A stretch of DNA of 64,000 nt, from assembly GCA_022710935.1 (NCBI GenBank), contig JAKLFY010000011.1, forward strand, positions 1-64,000, in the 5' to 3' direction. Made by a program: the position numbers and the translations under genes. Source of the stretch: Verrucomicrobiota bacterium (GTDB lineage Bacteria; Verrucomicrobiota; Verrucomicrobiia; Limisphaerales; J093). This document shows, piece after piece, positions 1,020 to 63,611 of this stretch. Within the stretch, counting starts at the first letter, position 1, and the number at the start of each line of letters is the position of its first letter. Under the pieces are notes generated by a model. It was given only the letters and a program-made list of their open reading frames with translations, ran no database searches and was not told the DNA's origin.

Positions 1020-3374
1020 GTGAAGCACTCCGATGCCATAAGGGCCCGACGCGGTCCGAGAGCCATCAGCCGTCTTCGTCGTGTTGTTGGGCTTCGGGGG
1101 TGGATCCGGGCAATGCTGACGGGCATGCTGGTGTTGCCCGTCCTGGCACAGACGCCCGCTGAACTGCGCCTGCACGTCAGCCTCGCGCCTGCCGGTCCCT
1201 CGTTCGACACCCCCATGCTCGCCGGCCAACGACTCCTGCTCGAGTGCAGTGATGATCTCAGGACTTGGACCGAACTGGCTCGGGTGCATGAGCGGCTGCA
1301 GGCTTACGGAGACTGGGCCGGTGGTGGCCCCGGCGCGAGTTTCTACCGGGTGCAGGCCGCGCCGTTGGGAGCATCCGACGATTGGTCAAATCAGGTCAGG
1401 GCCTCGTCCGGCTTTCTTTTCACGCCTGGAACTGGCGGGGGGGTGGGGGCGACCGCCTCGGTGAAGTGGTTGTTGCTGCTGCACGAGCCGGACCGTGTCT
1501 ATTTCCAGGACTCGGTCAAGTATCCCTACCATCTCCAATTCGCCCGGGCGCGGTTGCCCGGTTACGGCGCGATGGGCGCGATCGAGTTCTACGCCCAGTC
1601 ACTCTACGCAAACGACGCCCAGCGGATGGTGGTGGGATCTGTGCTGCGAGCCCCCGATCCGCAGGTCCGCGAGCTGGCCATCGAGGTGACTGGCGCGCAG
1701 GCGTTCCCGGCCAATAGAATCGTCGACTGGATCGACACCGTCCGCCGGCGCCTGGTGCCCGAACTCGGTTGGCGGGTTTTCTACATGCCATCGATGGAGC
1801 AACGCGCGGAGACCGAGGCGAGCCGGGCGCTGTTCGCCGCGCGCGGGATCGAGGTGGCCGCGCTGGAACGTTGGGCCACGGCCAACGCCTGCTACTCGGC
1901 GGGTTGGGCCCTGGGCCGACTGGTCTGGGTTCCCTCGACGGAAATACCTGCTGCCTTGGGCGACGGGCGGTTGGAGCTCAGCGACATTCTTGTGACTGAC
2001 CGCGTGCCGGCCGAGTTGCCGGTGCTCGCGGGCTATGTGTGCCTCGAACCGGCCACGCCCAACTCGCATGTCGCGCTGCTCGCCCGCTCGGTGCTGCTAC
2101 CCTTCGCCTATGCGAACGGCGCCGGGCTCCAGGCCGAGATTGCCAGCCTCCACGACCGCGAGGTGTTGCTGGTGGTCGACGAAACCAACGGTGTCTGCCA
2201 CATCGGTCTCCAGGACACCACCGGGTTGCTGACGCCCGAGCGGCGAGAGGAGATTCTCGCCAGCAAGCGTGGCGGTCCGCTCGACATCACACCCAAGGCG
2301 ACCAGAGGCAGCTTGACCGTGCCGGCCGACGAGTTGACCCCCGCGGACGTTTGCTTCGTGGGCGGCAAGGCGGCGAACTTCGGGTTCCTGCGCCGCAGCC
2401 TGCCTGAGGTCTCGCCGCACCCGGCAATCGCCGTCACGTTCGATCTGTGGGATGCCTACCTTGCGCAACCGTTGGGCAGGGGTCAGACCCTGCGGCAATT
2501 GATCGACAGCCGCCTCGCCCCCCACACCTACCCCCCGAACGTCCTGACCCTGCGGCTCGACCTCGCCGCCGTGCGCGCGACGATCGAGGATGCGGCGGAC
2601 TTCACGGCAGCCCAGCAGGTCGAGATCGTCACCGCGCTGCGGAATGCGGGCCTCGGCGGTGCTCGAATCCGCTTTCGCAGTTCCACCAACCTCGAAGACA
2701 GCGAGACTTTCAGCGGCGCCGGCCTGTACGACAGCTACAGCGGTTGTCTCGAAGACGACCTCGACGACGACCAGGCCGGGCCAAGCCGCTGCGATTCCAC
2801 CGAGTCGCGGGAACGCGGTGTCTTCCGCGCGATGCGGAAGGTGTACGCCAGTTTCTACAACGAGAACGCCTTCCTCGAACGCCTGCGCCACGGCATCCAC
2901 GAGGACGACGCAGGCATGGCGCTCCTCGTCCATTTCTCTGTCCCCGACGAATTCGAGTTGGCCAACGGCGTCGCGACGCTCGCGGTGGACAAGCGAGACG
3001 GGGCGCGCAACGCCGCGGTGCGCATCGTGTCCCAGTTGGGCGCCACGTCGGTGACAAACCCGGACGGCAGCGTCCGTTCCGAGGTGGTGAGCGCATCGTA
3101 CTCCGGCGCGGACACCGCCACCGCTGCGTTGAGACTCGACGAGGCCTCGACCTTAACCCAAGACAGCGCGCCGGTGATGCGCTGGGAGACTGACTACCGC
3201 ACCTTGCTCGCCCAGTTGAACACGGCCGCGCTGGCCTATGAAGCCTATTATCCCGCTCAAACCAGCTGCGAACTCGACTTCGAATACAAGCGCGTGGTGC
3301 CGGGCGAAATCGGTTTGAAACAGATCCGCGCGGTGCCCCATCCCATCCGAACGCCGCCGCCCACCATCCCGTGA
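1020..3374 (+). CDS. Exported glucan-water-dikinase-like (phosphohistidine + PPDK_N ATP-grasp) protein
   Basis: 784 residues from a GTG. The N-terminus is basic with a hydrophobic stretch ending VLPVLAQ (residues about 28-43), so export is likely. Residues about 70-120 form a small beta domain ending ASFYRV. A phosphohistidine-type motif NSHVALLAR lies near residues 342-352, with the His kept. The PPDK_N/ATP-grasp part follows: VGGKAANFGFLRR (about 442) and RFRSSTNLED...FSGAGLYDS (about 551), then KVYASFYNENAFLER. This His-domain-before-ATP-grasp order matches glucan water dikinases, not PEP synthase, and no PEP-binding barrel is present. The partner gene follows at once. A damaged paralogue lies at 60719-62680. 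Known family role: ATP-driven phosphorylation of glucans through a phosphohistidine. Inferred here: carbohydrate phosphotransfer, but the ATP source for an exported enzyme is unclear. Confidence 0.7.
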   Translation: MKHSDAIRARRGPRAISRLRRVVGLRGWIRAMLTGMLVLPVLAQTPAELRLHVSLAPAGPSFDTPMLAGQRLLLECSDDLRTWTELARVHERLQAYGDWAGGGPGASFYRVQAAPLGASDDWSNQVRASSGFLFTPGTGGGVGATASVKWLLLLHEPDRVYFQDSVKYPYHLQFARARLPGYGAMGAIEFYAQSLYANDAQRMVVGSVLRAPDPQVRELAIEVTGAQAFPANRIVDWIDTVRRRLVPELGWRVFYMPSMEQRAETEASRALFAARGIEVAALERWATANACYSAGWALGRLVWVPSTEIPAALGDGRLELSDILVTDRVPAELPVLAGYVCLEPATPNSHVALLARSVLLPFAYANGAGLQAEIASLHDREVLLVVDETNGVCHIGLQDTTGLLTPERREEILASKRGGPLDITPKATRGSLTVPADELTPADVCFVGGKAANFGFLRRSLPEVSPHPAIAVTFDLWDAYLAQPLGRGQTLRQLIDSRLAPHTYPPNVLTLRLDLAAVRATIEDAADFTAAQQVEIVTALRNAGLGGARIRFRSSTNLEDSETFSGAGLYDSYSGCLEDDLDDDQAGPSRCDSTESRERGVFRAMRKVYASFYNENAFLERLRHGIHEDDAGMALLVHFSVPDEFELANGVATLAVDKRDGARNAAVRIVSQLGATSVTNPDGSVRSEVVSASYSGADTATAALRLDEASTLTQDSAPVMRWETDYRTLLAQLNTAALAYEAYYPAQTSCELDFEYKRVVPGEIGLKQIRAVPHPIRTPPPTIP

Positions 3375-3466
3375 GTCACGCACGCCTCCCAGAGTCTTCA
3401 CCCCGGCAAGACCGAAGCCTCCAAGGCACTGGCGGATGCCGGCCAGAAAGGCAAAACCGCGCTCCA

Positions 3467-4681
3467 ATGGATAGAAAAGCACCCATTATGCTCATTTCCA
3501 TGCTGCCCTTGACGAAGCGACGCCAGGCCCTCCCCGTGCTGGTTCTGGTGCTCTCACTCGCTGCCCAGGCGCAAGTGCGGGTCGATTCAATCGCTCTCGG
3601 CCAGGACATGGTGACCCTCAGTTGGCGGGGGGGGCACGGTCCTTACCTGATCGAGACCTCGCCCGACTTGGCCACGTGGTCCGACCTGGGTGAACCCGCC
3701 GCTACCACCACGCGGACGCTGCGGGCGTTTGGGAGCCGGAGTTACTACCGGGTGACAGACCTCGACCCCGCCGGGCAATGCGGCCAACTGTTCGGCCTGA
3801 TCCAGACCGAGCAGGGCGAGTTCGGCGCCCTCCTGGGCCGGCACCGGCTGAAGACTCGTCTCTGGCTGTATCGGACTCAGGGTCCGCCGCACACCTCGCC
3901 TTCCCCCACGCCGGCGAGCTTCTGGCGGAAGTTGTTCGTCCATTACCAGCGCATCGAAGACGGGCGCGTGAGGACCTGGAGTGGTCCGTTGGAGGAACTT
4001 GGCGCGGTCGCCACGCCGACGAGTGAACGGCTTACGATCACATGGGCACGTGGCAGCGGGCCGGACCTGCGGAACTACGTGTTGACGCTCGGTTTTCCTT
4101 ACCCGGTCAACAACCCTCGGACCACGTCGCCGTTTCCCAGCGATGCTCGCTACGCGCTCGAGTGCACCCACGCCAGGCCGCAACCGGAATTGAACTGGTG
4201 GACTCCGGGGCTCTCCACCACGACCTCAGACGAGATCGGCCTGATGCAACTGGACCCGGCCAACGACCCTGCCAACCCCGATCATGCGTGGTGGGTCAGG
4301 CGCCACGTTGTGTCGAAGAACGGCGCTGCGTTGAACCTGCACTACTTTGTGGGGATGCCCCTGTATCGCGGCGAATCGCTGTGGATCCTCAAGACGCTCC
4401 TCCTCGACCGGTGGCTGTCGCCCACCTCGGGCAGCGGTGGCAGCCTGCCCGCATTCAGCACCGACAGCTACTTTGCGCAAACCCTCCTGCCCGGACATCA
4501 CAACTTCTTCGAAACCGTCCTCATCGAGCCCGGCCTCGATCCGGCGATCTCGGAAGCGACCTGCGCCGCGTTGTTCGCGTCGAACATCCGCCAGATCTAC
4601 GCGCTCAAGGACCTGGGCTTCGGCCTGAACCCCGACGACCTCTTCTACATCGGGTACGACAACTTGATCCGAGACCCGTAA
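3467..4681 (+). CDS. Exported partner protein of the dikinase-like gene, unknown function
   Basis: About 404 residues. A signal peptide is clear (TKRR followed by a Val/Leu-rich core ending AAQAQ). I chose the ATG at 3467; 3488 and 3500 are also possible. Residues about 45-100 hold the beta domain common in Verrucomicrobia secreted proteins (LSWRGG...LIETSPDLATWSDLG...YYRV). The rest is unrecognised, with Trp-rich segments and a C-terminal stretch HNFFETVLIEPGLDP...SNIRQIYAL. That stretch aligns without gaps to the gene fragment at 60184-60675, which lies behind the second dikinase-like copy. The conserved pairing suggests the two proteins work together. I see no catalytic motif. Confidence 0.6.
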   Translation: MDRKAPIMLISMLPLTKRRQALPVLVLVLSLAAQAQVRVDSIALGQDMVTLSWRGGHGPYLIETSPDLATWSDLGEPAATTTRTLRAFGSRSYYRVTDLDPAGQCGQLFGLIQTEQGEFGALLGRHRLKTRLWLYRTQGPPHTSPSPTPASFWRKLFVHYQRIEDGRVRTWSGPLEELGAVATPTSERLTITWARGSGPDLRNYVLTLGFPYPVNNPRTTSPFPSDARYALECTHARPQPELNWWTPGLSTTTSDEIGLMQLDPANDPANPDHAWWVRRHVVSKNGAALNLHYFVGMPLYRGESLWILKTLLLDRWLSPTSGSGGSLPAFSTDSYFAQTLLPGHHNFFETVLIEPGLDPAISEATCAALFASNIRQIYALKDLGFGLNPDDLFYIGYDNLIRDP

Positions 4682-5044: not shown

Positions 5045-7219
5045 ATGAAAACTCCCCTCCTGCTCCTCCTTGGTTTGATGGCCGTGGCGCCGACGCGGGC
5101 TGACTATCTCGACACCGTTCTGGCCGATAATCCGGCCGGCTATTGGCGTCTTGACACCTCCGAGCCGTGGCCTGCGGCCGTGGTGGCCAACAGCGGCTTC
5201 CTCGGCAGCGAGGTCGACGGCCAGGTCGTGGATGATGTTCTCCTGAACACCGACAGCCCGCTGGTCGGCGACGCCAACCCTTCTTTTGACTTCACCTCCG
5301 GGGGCCGTATCGCGATTCCCTTCCACGCCGAGCTGAATCGAACCAACACCTTCTCGTACGAAGTCTGGTATATCCAGACGGGCGGAACCGGCACGAGCCA
5401 CCGGTGCCCGCTCTGGTGGCGCGACGAACCGGTTTGGGGCGACACCCGCGGGTGGGTCCACTACGTTGTGGGAGAAGGCAACTGGTTCCAATCGTCGGAC
5501 GTCTACACGACCTGGGATGGGCTCGGCTCCAACACCTTGTTCGCCCAGGACGTCTGGCAGCACGTCGTGTGCACCTTCGACGGCAAAACGAAGAAGATCT
5601 ACCTGGATGGCGTCCTAATCGCCGTCAGCACCACCGCGAAGCTGGCCATCAAACCCGTCATGCGCCCGGTCACCACCATCAGCAGCGAATCCTATCCCTG
5701 GATCGGCAGTCTGGACGAGGTGGCCATCTACACCAACGCGCTGCCCGTCGAACGGATTCAGGCCCACTACGTCGCGGCGCGAGGCGAGAACCCGCCCGCC
5801 GTGGCCCCCAGCTTCGCGGTCGACACCGCGGGCAAGACCGCTTACGAAGGCGCGGTCGTCACCATCCGCACTATTGTCCTCGGGACGGCGCCGTTTACCT
5901 ATCAGTGGTACAAGGGCTCGACGCCGGTGCCTGGTCAAACCACGGACACCCTGACCTTGTCGCCCGCACTCGAAAGCGACAGCGGCGACTATAAGCTCAC
6001 CGTGAGCAATGCCGGAGGCAGTACGGACAGCCAGGTGGCCACCGTCGTGGTTCAGAAAGCCCCGCCCACCATTGTCGCCGGGCCGCAACCCGCCGTTCGC
6101 CTGGAAGGCGCGCGTGTCACCTTCACCGTCGAGAGCGGCGGTTCCGAACCGCTTGCCTTCCAGTGGAAGAGCAACAACGTCGCGATCGTCGGCGCCATCA
6201 CGGCCAGCCTGACGCTTGACAACGTGCAACCGTCCTTCGCCGCCGACTACAGCGTGTCGATCAGCAACGTCGCCGGAAACACGGATAGCGCTGCTGCCAG
6301 GCTGACCGTCGTCCCCGTCACCGCAGGTTCGCTGGCCGCTACGGTCGTCGCCGCCCACCCTGTCGCCTACTGGCGGGTGGACGAAGCGGCCGGGGCGGGC
6401 ACCGCCCGCGACTACGCAGGCGGTCATGATGGCGCCTACGATGCGGCCGTGACACTCGGCCAACCCAGCGCCATCGTTGGCGATTCCAACCCCAGCGCCA
6501 CCTTCGCCTATGGCGGCGTCATTGTCCCGTTCACCCCGGACCTGAATCCGTACACGACCTTCTCCCTCGAAGCGTGGGTCAAGGCCGACCCGATCGGGTC
6601 CGGCACTGATCGCCCGATCCTCTGGTCCTCGACCACCTACTCAGGCTGGGCCTACGGGTACATCCTGGCGATCAACACCGGCGATGAGTGGTCTTTCACC
6701 ACCGGCCAGAAGACCAGCGGCTTTAACACCATCACCGGCGGCATCGTCCCCGACGACGCCTGGCACCACGTGGTCGGCACGTTCGACGACGTCACCGGCG
6801 ACAAGCGCCTCTTCGTCGATGGGGTCGAAGTCGCCCAGACCACGACCGCCACCGGCACGTTCGCGCCGAATCAGACCACCCCCGACAACGTGCTTGCGCC
6901 CGACCAGGGCCTTGGCTGGGATCCCCGCAACTACACCAGTTTCAACGGCGGACTCGATGAACTGGTTTTCTATGACTACGCCCTGACCCCCGCCCAAGTC
7001 GCCGCGCACTACGCCGTCGGGGGGGGCGGCCCGGCGCCGTCCCTCAGCATCGCGACATCAGGCAACCAAGTCACGGTGAGCTGGAGCAGCGGCACCCTGC
7101 TCGAGAGCGCCGACCCCATCTCCGGAACCTGGACGCCTGTCGCCGGGGCCGCCCCGCCTTCCTACAGCGTGACTCCCACCGCCGCGGCGGCCAGGTACTA
7201 CCGCGCTGTCTACCCGTAG
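5045..7219 (+). CDS. Secreted LamG-Ig-Ig-LamG protein
   Basis: 724 residues with a clear signal peptide (MKTPLLLLLGLMAVAPTRA) and a GGAG ribosome-binding site 7 nt before the ATG. Domains in order: a concanavalin-like/LamG domain (about 20-240, with WQHVVCTFDG and SLDEVAIYTNAL), two Ig-like domains (about 250-335 and 340-425, each with Y.W/F.W...SG/AADY...SN.AG), a second LamG domain (about 430-660, WHHVVGTFDD, GLDELVFYDYAL), and a C-terminal beta domain with LLESADPISGTWTPV...YYRAVYP. No catalytic motif is visible. A carbohydrate-binding or adhesive surface role fits the neighbourhood. It is intact, unlike many neighbours. Confidence 0.85.
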   Translation: MKTPLLLLLGLMAVAPTRADYLDTVLADNPAGYWRLDTSEPWPAAVVANSGFLGSEVDGQVVDDVLLNTDSPLVGDANPSFDFTSGGRIAIPFHAELNRTNTFSYEVWYIQTGGTGTSHRCPLWWRDEPVWGDTRGWVHYVVGEGNWFQSSDVYTTWDGLGSNTLFAQDVWQHVVCTFDGKTKKIYLDGVLIAVSTTAKLAIKPVMRPVTTISSESYPWIGSLDEVAIYTNALPVERIQAHYVAARGENPPAVAPSFAVDTAGKTAYEGAVVTIRTIVLGTAPFTYQWYKGSTPVPGQTTDTLTLSPALESDSGDYKLTVSNAGGSTDSQVATVVVQKAPPTIVAGPQPAVRLEGARVTFTVESGGSEPLAFQWKSNNVAIVGAITASLTLDNVQPSFAADYSVSISNVAGNTDSAAARLTVVPVTAGSLAATVVAAHPVAYWRVDEAAGAGTARDYAGGHDGAYDAAVTLGQPSAIVGDSNPSATFAYGGVIVPFTPDLNPYTTFSLEAWVKADPIGSGTDRPILWSSTTYSGWAYGYILAINTGDEWSFTTGQKTSGFNTITGGIVPDDAWHHVVGTFDDVTGDKRLFVDGVEVAQTTTATGTFAPNQTTPDNVLAPDQGLGWDPRNYTSFNGGLDELVFYDYALTPAQVAAHYAVGGGGPAPSLSIATSGNQVTVSWSSGTLLESADPISGTWTPVAGAAPPSYSVTPTAAAARYYRAVYP

Positions 7220-7665: not shown

Positions 7666-7946
7666 CCCCTTCAACGCAGCACAGAAACTTGATGTGTCTA
7701 CAACAAGTCCCACCGGTTGAGGACTTCAGCCCACATGCGTTGACCTTTTGGTTTTTTCGGCTTGCCCGTGGTCACAGCGCCAATTCATGAAGATGAGAAG
7801 GCTGGAGGGGGGACGGCTCGTCCCCCGCCATCGCGAATGAAGACGGTGTTTCTCGGCGACGGGTCGCCTATCACTCCACGAATTGGTCCTGCCGGTCTCT
7901 ATGGCTGGTGTGGTCCGGCCCATCTCAACTGGCGACCGCCTCGGAA

Positions 7947-8100
7947 GGCCTGGCCGCCTGGTTCAAGGACCCACCAGCGCAATTTCGCTCCCGGCCACTC
8001 CACTGGCTCAAGGCCCCGCTCGATCCGACCGCCCTGCGCGAGCAGATCCAGGCCCTGCGCGATCAGTGCGGCTTCGGCGGCCTTGCGCCAACGGCTTGCC
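7947..8100 (+). pseudogene. N-terminal fragment of a GH106-like glycoside hydrolase
   Basis: About 50 residues read LAAWFKDPPAQFRSRPLHWL, then PLDPTALREQIQALRDQCGFGG. This is the opening segment of large alpha-L-rhamnosidase-like (GH106) hydrolases, where a 'F.dPP...RP..fW.W...l....i..qi..l...GfgG' block follows the signal peptide. Signal peptide and catalytic region are both missing. A C-terminal piece of a similar enzyme lies far away at 44660-44854. The assignment rests on one block. Confidence 0.4.
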
Positions 8101-8138
8101 TGGTGAGCCTGTTCCCGTTTTGATTGCCAAAACCAGAC

Positions 8139-9943
8139 ATGAAACCGATCATGCACTCTCTCCCCAGTTTGGCCTTGAGCACACTCGCCGTCCTCGCGGA
8201 TGCGTCGTCCGACGCGACCGCGGTTCTCGACCAGCAGGCCCAGCTCGAAGCCCAGACCTTCTGGGACAATCGCGACTGGGACTGGTATCGGCAGAACATC
8301 CCGTTTTTCGAGTGCCCGGATGCCGAGATTACGACGACCTACTACTACCGGTGGGAATTGACCACGAAACACCTCACCTACGGTTCGCCAACCAGCGGCT
8401 ATTCGTACACCGAGTTCATCGACCGGCCATTCTGGTCGGGCGCGTACGGGGCGATCAGTTGCCCCGCCGGCCACCAGCTCTACGAAGCGCGCTGGCTGCG
8501 CGATCCGCGTTACGCGCAGGACTACAGCCGCTACTGGTTGCGCACGGCCGGCGCCCAGCCGCGCAATTACAGCACCTGGCTCGCGGACTCCGTCTGGGCC
8601 GTCTACCAGGTGCACCGGGACGAGGCCTTCACGAAGGACCTGCTTGCGGATTGCAGACCCTGCTGTGGGATCCCAAGCGCGAGTTCTTCCTCATCATGTT
8701 CAAGAACGACGAAGCGAACGAGAAGGACTTCCCGGGCAAGCCGATCAAGGCCGGCACGCTGATCTACGAGGACGGTCCGTTCGCCGGGAGTCTCGAGGGC
8801 CGCGAATTGATTGGCTACGTGCCATGGCAATTCAACCTGCCCGATCCAGGCTTCGAGTCCGCCTGGAAATTCCTCATGGACTCGAATTACTTCTTCGCCC
8901 CCTTCGGGCCCAGCTTCGTCGGCCGCAATGACCCGATGTTCGTGCTGAAGACATCCTGCTGCTGGTGGAGCGGCCAGTCCTGGCCCTACGCCACCACGCA
9001 GACGCTCAAGGCGCTGGCGAACCTGCTCCAGAACTACCGCCAGAATGTCATCACCCGCGGCGACTACGTCCGGCTCTTGCGCATCTACGCGCTGACGCAT
9101 CGGAAAGCCGGCAAGCCCTACATTGCCGAGGCGGCGCATCCGGACACGGGCTCGTGGGAAGGCCACGACGGCTACAACCACAGCGAGCACTACTTCCACA
9201 GCGGTTTCAACGACCTCATCATCACCGGCCTCGTCGGCGTGAAACCGTGCGCGGACGACGTGCTCGAAATTGATCCGCTGGCGCCGTCGGATTGGCCGTG
9301 GTTCGCGCTCGATGAACTTCCGTATCGCGGCCACCGCGTCAGTGTGGTGTGGGACAAGGACGGCAGCCGGTATCGCCGGGGCGCGGGGCTGCGCATCCTG
9401 GTGGACGGGAAGCAGGCCGCTTCGTCCGACAATCTCGGCCCGCTTCAGGTCCGGCTGCCCGCGCGCGCGCCGGCGCCGGCCGGCAAGCCGCCCGTGAATT
9501 TTCTCGTCAACAATGACGGCGACTATTTCCCCCGCCTCACCGCTTCGTTCACCAGCGACCGCGCCCCGCTCGAAAAGGCGAACGACGGCAACTACTGGTA
9601 TCATCTGCATCCGCCCAACCGCTGGACCTCCTACGGCTCGACCAACTCGACCGACTGGATGGAGGTGGACTTCGGCGAGCCGAGGGAGATCGGACGCATC
9701 GAGCTCTGCCTCTACGACGACCATGGCGGTGTGCAGCCGCCGGCTGCCTACACCGTGCAGTCGTGGACCGGCTCCGAATGGCGCGACCTCCCTGACCAGG
9801 TCAAGACCCCAGCCAGACCCGCCGGCAGTGCGGTGAACACCATCACCTTCCCCCAACAGACCACCACCAGGTTCCGCGTGGTCTTCACCCACAATGACAC
9901 GGCGCGCAGCGGCGTGACGGAGATCCTGGCCTGGAAAGAGTAG
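8139..9943 (+). pseudogene. MGH1-like glycoside hydrolase with F5/8-type C domain, broken by internal deletion/frameshift
   Basis: The first part (from ATG 8139, signal peptide, then FFECPDAEITTTYYYRWEL and RPFWSGAYGAISCPAGHQ) reads to about 8650 and ends at AFTKDLLAD. The rest reads in another frame from LLWDPKREFFLIMF to 9943, including CCWWSGQSWPYATTQTLKALANLL and a C-terminal discoidin-like domain (about 9500-9940). In the family about 100 residues normally lie between these two blocks, so I infer a deletion inside the alpha/alpha toroid together with the frame change near 8655. The long open frame starting at 7883 uses the second frame and its N-terminus is not protein-like. Substrate unknown. 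Confidence 0.7.
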
Positions 9944-60183: not shown

Positions 60184-60675
60184 TCAATTCGTCAATGTCC
60201 GAACCGTATTGTCCAGACCCAGCACGGTGACGGTCTGGTCAGACGCGCCGAACTGGTAGGAAGAGTACTGGAGCAACCGGATGTTCTCGGCGATCAGCTC
60301 CGCCTTCACGCTATCCGCCAGGTCCGGCTCCAGCCACGGGTCCAGGATCAGCTCCTCGACGTGCTGATGTCCGGTGCGGCCGTGTACCCAGAGCGTCTGC
60401 GAGGGGTAACTCCGCAGGACCAGCGGCTGGCTCAACAAGCCTTCCACCCGCGACTCGCCCGCGCCGCCCACGTAGGCGTAGTCCGAGCTCGTGGTGTATG
60501 AAAGCGGATTGCACGGGGCCATCTGGAACGTCATCGGCGCCGAGCATGCAATCCAACTCAACGTTGTGGCGATTGAGACCGGACTGGTGGTCAGCGCGCG
60601 CCAGTCCGACGGGGAAGGGTCTGCCCGAAAGCCGAAGAGATTGGTCAGCGGTTCTGGCGCGCGGAACAGCACCAC
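60184..60675 (-). pseudogene. Truncated partner of the second dikinase-like gene
   Basis: Open frame of 163 codons without a credible start; the frame is open back to a stop near 60703. Its last 60 residues (HQHVEELILDPWLEPDLADS, ELIAENIRLL, GLDN) align without gaps to the end of the intact partner at 3467-4681. In a 28-residue block I count 10 identities, including E, P, L, P, A and NIR. Signal peptide and N-terminal domain are missing. Same order and strand relation to the dikinase gene as in the first module. Confidence 0.5.
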
Positions 60676-60718
60676 CGATTCGTTGGTAATCGTCAGGCCA
60701 AGTCATGGCGTAAGCGCC

Positions 60719-62680
60719 TCAGGGCAGCAAGGCCGAGCTTTGCTTGAGCGCGACGTTGGTGAGGCTCAGCCACCGGTAGAACTCCACCGTTTCCGGCGTG
60801 GCGTTGTCATCGGGGTTGGTCACGGAAGCGGCGCCGGGTTGGGTGACGAGGGTGCCCCGCACGCTCCAGCCCATCGGGGTCAGTTGGGCGGTGAGCGTAG
60901 CCACGCCGTTGGCCAGTTCGGTTTCGTCGGGAGTCGAGCCATGCACCAACAGGCCCATGCCGGCGTGCGCTTCGTCCACGCCTAACCGCAGGCGTTCGAG
61001 AAAGGCGTTGTCGTTGTAGAAGCTGGCATAAACCTTCTTGATGGCACGGAACACGCCGCGCCCCTTCGATTCAGTGGCGTCGCAGCGGCAAGGCCCGTAG
61101 TTCTCGCCGTCCAGGTCGTCTGCCAGGCAGCCGCTGAAACTGTCGTAGAGGCCCGCGCCGGTGAAGCTCTCGGTGTCTTCCAGGTTGGTGGAACTGCGGA
61201 AGCGGGTTTTGCGCAGCGGCTCGAATCCCGCCAGATCGCTAAGGATGGCCTGCTGTTGGGCGGGGCTGAATCGCGCCGCGCGGGTGATGAGGTCCCGCAC
61301 CGCTGCCAGACTGGCGCGCACCGCGGTGACGTCGGGCGGATGGCGGAAGCCGCCCAGGCGCGTCTGAATGGCGGCGCGCAAGCTCTGGCCGCCGGGCAGG
61401 GCCTGGTCGAGGAAGTCGTCCCACAAATCGAAGCTGACCGCCAGGGCGTCGGGCGAGAACTCCGGGATGACGCGGCGGAGCAGCCCGAAGTGGGCTGCCT
61501 TGCCGCCGAAGAACCGGAGGTCCGCCGGGGTGAGGCCGGCGCTATCCGCCACGTACGCGCCGTAGCGTTCCTTGCGTGTGAGTTGGAAGCTCGGCGTCTT
61601 GAGGGCGGCCAGTTGGGCGCGCTGCGTCGCATCGAGCGCGCCGTCCACCGCCAGCACCCGGTTGTCGCCCGTGCGCACCGCCACGTCGCGCCCGGCCAAG
61701 GTCCGCACGCGTTGCCGCTCGGCTGGGTCGGCCAGGTAACGGAAGGGGACGCCGTAGTTCTGCGCCAGAATGGCGACGTGCGAACTGAGGGTGGCCGGCG
61801 CCAGCGACAGAAGGCCGGCCACAAAGGGCACCTCTGCCGGCACCCCGTCGGTCAGCAGAATGTCGTCGGGCCGCAGCCGTCCGTCGGCGTAGGCGGCGTC
61901 AATCTCCATCGCCGGCACGAACCAAAGACGCCCCACGGCCCAACCGGTCGCATAGACGGTGGTCTGCTGGCCTGACCAACGGTCGAGCGTCGCCAGTGGA
62001 ATCCCGCGCGCGGCGAAATACGCCTCGTAGCGCCGGGTGTGCTCGGCCTGTTCAAAGGTCGGCAGGTAGAACACGAGCGTTTCCGCCGGAGCAGCCACCG
62101 CGGCCTTCACCCGCTCGAACCAGCCGCTGACTTGCTCGGGCGGATACAAATCCTCGCCTGCGAACTGAACGGCATATTCCCGCCCCCAGGCCGCCCAAAT
62201 TGTGAAGGGCGAAGCCAGCGTGGGTTGCGGGCAAAGGATGGTGCCCAGCACGACCTGCTGGCCATTGGTCCGCAGCGCCACCGCGTTGAACTGCTCCGGT
62301 GTCAGGCCAATGAACGGCGCCAGCCGGCGCGTCGCGAAATCGTAGTGCAAGAGGTGGGCGCGGCTGTCCTGGAAATACACGCGGGGAGGCTCGCCCAGCA
62401 CCAGGGCGAACTTGGCCCAAGCCAGCGGCTGCGACGCCGAACAAGGCGATGCGTTGAACAGCGGGTCGCCCGGGAAGACCAGTTGATTGGCCCAGTCGTT
62501 GGTGCTCGTGCGCGGGGCCACCATGAGCCGGTAAAACCGCGCGCCCTGGCCCGAAGCCGCCGTGTCCACGTACTCGAATGGGGCGTGCAGCAGTGCATTG
62601 GGGTCAGGTCTCTGGGTTCTGGTTTTGCCTGACATGATCGGCAATTTGCAGCCGTTGGCGTCGAGGAGGTATTGGGGCAC
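60719..62680 (-). pseudogene. Second glucan-dikinase-like gene, both ends damaged
   Basis: 653 codons, clearly paralogous to 1020-3374. His motif SSHVAILAQ (about residue 297), FFGGKAAHFGLLRR (about 392), RFRSSTNLED...GAGLYDS (about 497) and KVYASFYNDNAFLERLR are all kept in the same order. The first 16 or so residues (PQYLLDANGCKLPIM) belong to another protein family, so the native start and signal peptide are gone. The C-terminus stops about 55 residues short of the paralogue, and the next WPDDYQRI reads in another frame. The core is intact enough to show conservation of the catalytic His and ATP-grasp motifs, but export is lost. Confidence 0.7.
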
Positions 62681-62840
62681 ACCGGTTTCTTTGCCGGGTC
62701 ACTCGAGATAAAGGCGGGCGACGAACTGGTGACCGCACGATGCGGCGGCGTTGACCTTGGCCTCGATCGGGCCCCAGTGGAAGTTGGCGGGATCGATCAT
62801 GACATTCGAGAGCCTTGTGTAGTCCCATTCGAGCCTGTGG
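62640..62840 (-). pseudogene. N-terminal fragment of a glycosidase-like (DUF4832-type) gene
   Basis: The minus-strand reading gives RLEWDYTRLSNVMIDPANFH, WGPIEAKVNAAASCGHQFVA, RLYLE, a TGA stop, then PGKETGVPQYLLDANG. This is the opening of a barrel family found in Verrucomicrobia (usual '..EW.Y.pLs.vM....fdW.piE...d...srGhQ...RlYleyPGK....P..L.d.Gl'). It contains a stop codon and runs straight into the dikinase-like remnant. Confidence 0.5.
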
Positions 62841-62851
62841 GAGGGGGTGTC

Positions 62852-63481
62852 TCATGCTGGCTGTGCGATGCGGCCGAGGAAGAGGAGGGCGCCAGTGTCG
62901 CTGTCGCGGATCAGAAAGAGGAACGGGCGATCGGCTTTGAAGACGAGTGTGAACGGGATTTGGACCGGTGCGGCGGTTGGGGCCTCGACCATCACGGCAC
63001 TGGCCGCCGCGGCGTCCGTCCCTTTCTCGGTCACTTCGACAAAGGCCCTTCGTTTGGCCAGGATCGATCACTCGAGGCGTGTCGAAAAAGGCACCGTTCG
63101 GGCGGAATGCCGCGTAGCGCACCTGGTCCAATCGAGTGGCGTGCATCATGGGCACCCGGTTCTTGCGTCGCTGGCCGGGGAAAAAATCGCGGGGTTTGGT
63201 CCGCGATTCGAGGAACGGTTCGGCCCACGGACCCTTGAAATGAACGGCATTGACCAGGATCAGGCGTATCCAGCGGGCGATGTCGGGAGGCGGGTCAGGG
63301 ATGATGCTGGAGATGCGATCACGGGTGTGGTGCGCGACCCAGGCGAGGCTGAGTTCGCAGGGGAGATCCGAGGTTTGGCTTGGCTTGACGCGTCGGCCCC
63401 TGGGTTCGAGTCGGTGCGGGGATCGCACCCTCCGGTCAGGACCAAGAGCGTGGCAATGAGGATTCTGGAGGCTATGTTCAT
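62852..63481 (-). pseudogene. Serpin lipoprotein, broken
   Basis: N-terminus from ATG 63481: NIASRILIATLLVLTGGC, a lipoprotein signal with lipobox Cys. In another frame AHHTRDRISSIIPDPPPDI, LILVNAVHFKGPWAEPFLES and NRVPMMHATRLDQVRYAAF are central serpin blocks. In a third region TEKGTDAAAASAVMVEA (reactive-loop hinge) and FLFLIRDSDTGALLFLGRI form the serpin C-terminus, ending at 62852. At least two frame changes or deletions (near 63365 and 63060) separate these blocks, and the first 150 or so residues of the fold are missing. The hinge is of the inhibitory type, so the ancestor was probably an anchored protease inhibitor. Confidence 0.75.
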
Positions 63482-63611
63482 AGAGCTGTCGGAAGCTGGA
63501 ATGTCCATGTTTTGCTTCTTTCCGCGCCAGCGGGGCAACAGGTAAATCGAGGACTTCCTGGTGCGGATCTCTCACCACTGGGAAGATGACAACAGAATCC
63601 GGGCTGCATAC

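Follow-up and report, generated by a model that had tools for sequence, protein, structure and literature searches.

Known dikinases of the phosphohistidine superfamily act where ATP is made, and the question raised by this locus is what an enzyme of this type could do if it is exported, together with the product of the gene that follows it. The locus lies in the first 64,000 nucleotides of contig JAKLFY010000011.1 (assembly GCA_022710935.1), from a Verrucomicrobiota bacterium; this whole stretch is called the window below. Precisely, two co-oriented open reading frames (ORFs), at positions 1020-3374 and 3371-4681, encode a dikinase-like protein of 784 residues and a second protein, which an earlier inspection of the letters (the sequence-only reading) had taken for an exported glucan-dikinase-like enzyme and a dedicated partner. 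We consider it probable that the two genes function as one unit, namely an exported dikinase within the phosphoenolpyruvate (PEP)-synthase/phosphohistidine superfamily. More tentatively, we propose that a widespread dikinase family works in the periplasm or on the cell surface, where it uses ATP or a different donor to phosphorylate an extracellular glycan or alcohol with the help of an acceptor-dedicated beta domain, and that in some lineages it has become a two-protein machine.

Domain order and catalytic residues of the dikinase

The features of the dikinase gene, all on the forward strand, are listed here with the residues that they encode.

1020-3374, + strand: exported phosphohistidine dikinase-like gene, 784 residues
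1113-1157, + strand: hydrophobic leader, residues 32-46, ...MLTGMLVLPVLAQT
1167-1364, + strand: FN3-like domain with the motif LESSxDLxxW, about residues 50-115 (beta strands in the model; the motif is also in the FN3-like domain of the second protein)
1392-1889, + strand: conserved alpha/beta domain, residues 125-290, a candidate acceptor site (model secondary structure and conservation)
1890-2219, + strand: swivelling phosphohistidine domain, residues 291-400
2067-2069, + strand: codon of the predicted catalytic His350, within NSHVALLAR
2304-3350, + strand: C-terminal ATP-grasp domain, residues 429-777, with the ligands K450, R553, S572, E755, Q768 and R770
2739-2819, + strand: Asp-rich loop within the ATP-grasp domain, with C576 and C591

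The AlphaFold2 model of the dikinase was built from 66 sequences (predicted local distance difference test score, pLDDT, of 88.4) and has the domains in the order given above, after a leader that is disordered over residues 1-46. The window start codons are GTG and uncertain. As the sequence-only reading had it, the C-terminal part is an ATP-grasp domain of the PPDK_N type: the Pfam family was matched over residues 447-678 (E 2e-14, above the cut-off) and in all the 24 relatives scanned, 18 of which also matched the PEP-utilizers family, the mobile His domain. The modelled ATP-grasp domain superposed on that of rifampin phosphotransferase (RPH) with AMPPNP (5hv1) with a Z-score of 28.4 (2.8 Å over 292 residues) and on that of PEP synthase with a Z-score of 27.9, and the hhalign comparison between the dikinase and the PEP synthase of a relative from the same order covered the whole ATP-grasp domain (probability 98.6, E 1.3e-15). 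In the hhalign comparison, K450, R553, E755, Q768 and R770 face the ligand positions of PEP synthase; the swivel domain with His350 aligns with the swivel His of both PEP synthase and RPH. In RPH, K22, R117, T136 and E297 touch the nucleotide or Mg and the phosphate is carried by His825 (PMC4844700); their counterparts in the dikinase are K450, R553, S572, E755 and His350, respectively, S572 being presumably matched to T136 from its equal spacing to the Arg.

We considered 66 relatives that are 27-66% identical to the window dikinase, and in all of them K450, R553, S572, E755, Q768, R770 and His350 (the conserved His already singled out in NSHVALLAR) were invariant. K149 and H171 of the alpha/beta domain were invariant as well. 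By the features tested, the protein is a member of the PPDK_N/phosphohistidine dikinase superfamily; its catalytic set is intact, and its enzyme activity is predicted from these residues.

This invariance also bears on a second option of the sequence-only reading, an ATP-grasp fold reused as a mere glycan binder, which did not survive the comparison: a dead glycan-binding fold is unlikely because the nucleotide ligands and the catalytic His are retained in 66/66 relatives. More generally, an exported pseudo-enzyme might have turned the ATP-grasp/His scaffold into a binder of glycans or other ligands with no phosphotransfer. That no ATP is expected outside the cytoplasm would agree with such a protein, and FN3-like modules and dockerin-like tails (see below) are typical of binding or scaffold proteins; however, a nucleotide site plus a swivel His would be unnecessary for a binder, and six ligands and His350 are invariant among these relatives, in an alignment with only 38 invariant columns out of 784. 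We regard a pseudo-enzyme as unlikely.

The order of the domains, in which the His domain precedes a PPDK_N ATP-grasp domain at the C-terminus, is that of alpha-glucan water dikinases (GWD), as the sequence-only reading had recognised, and of phosphoglucan water dikinases (PWD). No PEP/pyruvate-binding domain was found in the Pfam scan of the dikinase, and the chain encoded in the window stops after the ATP-grasp domain. PEP synthase and pyruvate phosphate dikinase (PPDK) share the ATP-grasp ligands and the His domain with it, but they have the reverse domain order, and the dikinase is without their PEP/pyruvate-binding domain. The order in RPH is ATP-grasp, RIF-binding and C-terminal swivel His (PMC4844700), whereas here His350 precedes the ATP-grasp domain.

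The likeness to GWD and PWD has its limits. These enzymes act on starch in plastids and contain a CBM45 or CBM20 module, whereas the dikinase is exported and belongs with a beta domain. The Pfam scans of the dikinase and 24 relatives contained no CBM45, CBM20 or other carbohydrate-binding module, and GWD1_pHisD (PF22973), the GWD-type His domain, was matched weakly in 7/24 members (best E 0.0044) and never over the cut-off in the genome of the window. Because of the missing modules, the weak His-domain match and the export, the dikinase is ordered like a GWD but is not classed as one, the comparison being made by domains. The catalytic His is essential in GWD (PMC12892837, PMC11986951). Since the plant enzymes have no high-resolution structure (PMC12892837) and share the domain order, proteins of the present family could serve as structural stand-ins for them.

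The second gene and the fused relatives

The second ORF is open from 3371 to 4681 (436 residues as listed), and its likely start is the ATG at 3467 or at 3488. The features of this gene are the following.

3467-4681, + strand: second exported gene, by homology the C-terminal beta domain of the dikinase as a separate protein
3560-3781, + strand: FN3-like domain, residues 64-137 (Z-score of 7.6 to a titin FnIII domain over 72 residues, 2.9 Å)
3788-4678, + strand: beta domain, residues 140-436 (AlphaFold2 model mostly above pLDDT 90; conservation)

Pfam and NCBIfam scans of the second protein gave no match. It is homologous to the C-terminal 270-300 residues, approximately, of fused paralogues that this genome encodes and of fused relatives elsewhere. 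Among 80 named GTDB loci, the fused form, mostly of about 1,000-1,250 residues, was present at nearly all the intact loci in which the contig reaches the C-terminus. The split form was present at 7 loci (the window, L037, L038, L039, L104, G025 and G385), and in 7/7 testable ones the partner gene follows the dikinase immediately, in the same orientation. The seven split-type rows tested in the tree form one clade with a support of 99; these rows include L041, in which the contig edge hides the position of the partner, while G385 was found afterwards through its 65% identity. G385 comes from another class of the phylum, which suggests a transfer of the split form. A profile of the beta domain searched against 188 genomes of the class matched dikinase loci only, besides one weak match (E 1.1e-4) whose context was unchecked.

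The two genes are read as one unit because the beta domain is fused to the dikinase in nearly all the intact relatives, because the split form is one clade and because, with the exception of that weak match, the domain occurs only with the dikinase in the class. Judged by this homology, the second protein is no unrelated partner but a dikinase domain that the rest of the family has in fused form. Of the dedicated partner named in the sequence-only reading, the conserved adjacency stands, whereas its status as a separate partner does not, the domain being fused in most relatives. A split produced by sequencing error was ruled out, as it recurs in seven loci, each time with a leader and an FN3-like module on the second protein. 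The split clade offers a naturally two-part system, from which the beta domain can be taken out and to which it can be returned.

A division over two polypeptides has a precedent in HpeHI and PpsAB (PMC12167813). HpeHI, CreHI, phenylphosphate synthase and RPH resemble the dikinase in the ATP-grasp fold, the nucleotide ligands and the swivelling His, and they use small-molecule acceptors; HpeHI, however, is split between the ATP-grasp domain and the swivel and acceptor domains, and here the split falls between the ATP-grasp domain and an unrelated beta domain.

The model of the second protein (pLDDT 83.5) has a mostly well-predicted all-beta domain, in which the conserved clusters HRLK (residues 158-161) and QT..PGHH (370-377) suggest, at the level of sequence, a functional site. 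The best Foldseek match of this model was non-significant (E 3.4e-3), and beta-propellers were mixed with BFA1, kievitone hydratase and 25-phosphosteroid lyase, which were weak matches (E 0.008-0.03, probability 0.10-0.51) and which we take to be tandem-calycin (AttH/CrtC-like) proteins. CghA gave a Z-score of 6.1 over 103 residues. The lack of a fold match is no proof of a new fold.

These matches, together with the HRLK and QT..PGHH clusters as a possible active site, would fit a kinase coupled to a phospholyase, in which the dikinase would phosphorylate an alcohol and the beta domain would eliminate the phosphate, giving an exported ATP-dependent dehydratase. We consider this very improbable, in that the matches are non-significant and include beta-propellers, and the kinase of the 25-hydroxysteroid system is described as a 40-kDa protein of the phosphotransferase family and not of the PPDK type (PMC8449060). 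For the latter reason the 25-hydroxysteroid kinase/lyase pair was also set aside as a direct model, the parallel being weak.

Export and possible sources of the phosphate

Both proteins have hydrophobic leaders, as the sequence-only reading had anticipated. To extend this to the family, we located the 13-residue segment of highest hydrophobicity in each complete protein; it was within the leader in 52/56 relatives, 8.4 being expected from the leader length; the split-off partner proteins have a leader of their own in 7/7 split loci. Sorangium and other Myxococcota members carry lipobox-type leaders (e.g. LLAACG, FAACHG, STACPG) followed by Gly/Ser- or Gly/Glu-rich linkers, and dockerin- or EF-hand-like repeats form the C-terminus of several Planctomycetota members, one such tail (L074) matching Dockerin_1 with an E of 0.00033, slightly under the Pfam cut-off. 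Moreover, the loop GCLADDLDGDxxGPSxCD is an insertion in the ATP-grasp domain relative to PEP synthase and carries the only two conserved Cys columns of the family, both present in 64/66 members; it may form a disulphide and a Ca2+ site. The leaders, the lipobox-type leaders, the dockerin-like tails and the Cys pair in the inserted loop together argue for the export of the dikinase family. RPH and the two-component dikinases are cytoplasmic, unlike the exported dikinase described here, and no description of an exported member was found in the open-access literature. We also looked for a PEP-synthase order with loss of the nucleotide ligands, for the lack of a leader and for the lack of linkage between the two genes, and none of the three was found.

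It could be argued that the precursor acts in the cytoplasm, where ATP is present, the leader being inefficient or wrongly called, and the uncertain GTG start codons of the window would leave room for this. The leaders of 52/56 relatives and 7/7 partners, the lipobox-type leaders, the dockerin-like tails and the conserved Cys pair speak against it, and we hold this explanation to be extremely unlikely.

If the protein is an exported enzyme, the reaction probably proceeds as follows. The ATP-grasp domain (residues 429-777) would bind Mg-ATP and His350 of the swivel domain would accept the beta-phosphate, with the release of AMP and inorganic phosphate. That these residues charge the His has been established in RPH and PEP synthase. 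The swivel domain would then move and deliver the phosphate to an acceptor hydroxyl, the acceptor being held by the domain of residues 125-290 or by the all-beta domain of the second gene. A glycan or another extracellular alcohol is the most plausible putative acceptor, and handling of the acceptor or of the product is the best reading of the beta domain. In the split lineage the beta domain gained its own leader and FN3-like module; with separate leaders on the two halves, these must therefore meet after export, and would assemble in trans.

Several points weigh against the proposed exported dikinase. Neither the bacterial periplasm nor the surroundings of the cell are expected to contain ATP, which leaves the reaction with no obvious donor, and no measurement of the activity of any family member was found in the literature searched. 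For the beta domain, neither a confident structure match nor any sequence match was obtained in the PDB. The family is rare and patchy across the phylum (4/288 genomes at E 1e-40), and an all-against-all comparison of neighbouring ORFs (80 loci and the window) gave common families only, besides a GH5-like gene, and none that names the acceptor.

As for the donor, scavenged extracellular ATP is conceivable because the Km of RPH for ATP is near 8 µM (PMC4844700), and by analogy with HpeH alone, transphosphorylation is conceivable as an alternative phosphate supply. Carried to its end, this alternative would be a transphosphorylase outside the cell, in which an extracellular phosphoester or polyphosphate supplies His350 with phosphate for onward transfer, with an ATP site that is regulatory or works in reverse. 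The His component of the related HpeHI alone shifts phosphate among phenolic substrates (PMC12167813) and such an enzyme would account for export with no ATP, but the strict conservation of all the ATP ligands would be left unexplained, and we rate it as improbable. Should the proposed exported dikinase reaction be true, Verrucomicrobiota, Planctomycetota and Myxococcota would carry out energy-dependent phosphorylation beyond the cytoplasm, and the question of extracytoplasmic ATP would become testable.

Distribution, paralogues and neighbouring genes

The arrangement also occurs in other genomes. We confirmed at least 553 related stretches among at least 578 pattern matches in GTDB genomes, and the best 80 of these at least 553 stretches belong to Verrucomicrobiota, Planctomycetota, Myxococcota, Binatota and one Pseudomonadota metagenome-assembled genome. 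The family is frequent in the order of the window (19/58 relatives), and the genome of the window itself has four copies, one of which is decayed and lies at the other end of the window.

60193-62680, - strand: decayed fourth paralogue of the fused type, with a stop after about 650 residues, about 230 residues deleted and a C-terminal remnant in another frame

A partial serpin-like match (62607-63578, - strand, Pfam E 2e-15) adjoins it. A second exported dikinase-like subfamily, of about 650-880 residues (L035, L036, L025 and L150, the last being G263:C168), has neither the beta domain nor the cysteine loop. Its members have an SHV/SHI-type His motif and RSS..ED...GAGLYDS, and some have EF-hand segments, as does L035; a GAGLYDS-type motif after RSS..ED is, we presume, also a feature of GWD, and is taken here as a lead only.

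The sequence-only reading had pointed to polysaccharide-degrading genes nearby. Such neighbours are present in the window, precisely a LamG/Ig protein (5045-7219) and an MGH1-like glycosidase with an F5/8C domain (7883-9943), but their linkage to the dikinase is not conserved in the other loci, and after the neighbour comparison of 80 loci and the window a conserved glycan neighbourhood was discarded as general context.

CotH is, like the dikinase, a family of secreted kinases abundant in the same genomes, with 28 matches in the 7.5-Mb genome of the window and matches in 50/58 relatives, most of them with many; it belongs to another Pfam family, and no special linkage to the dikinase was found. 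In fact, 6 loci have CotH genes at a distance of up to 10 kb, against about four expected from CotH density (a rough estimate), and this linkage was discarded as a signal given the abundance of CotH. A GH5-like exported gene lies directly 3′ of the fused dikinase in four Planctomycetota loci (L078, L086, L092 and L113), and in L092 its start is also overlapped by a CotH gene.

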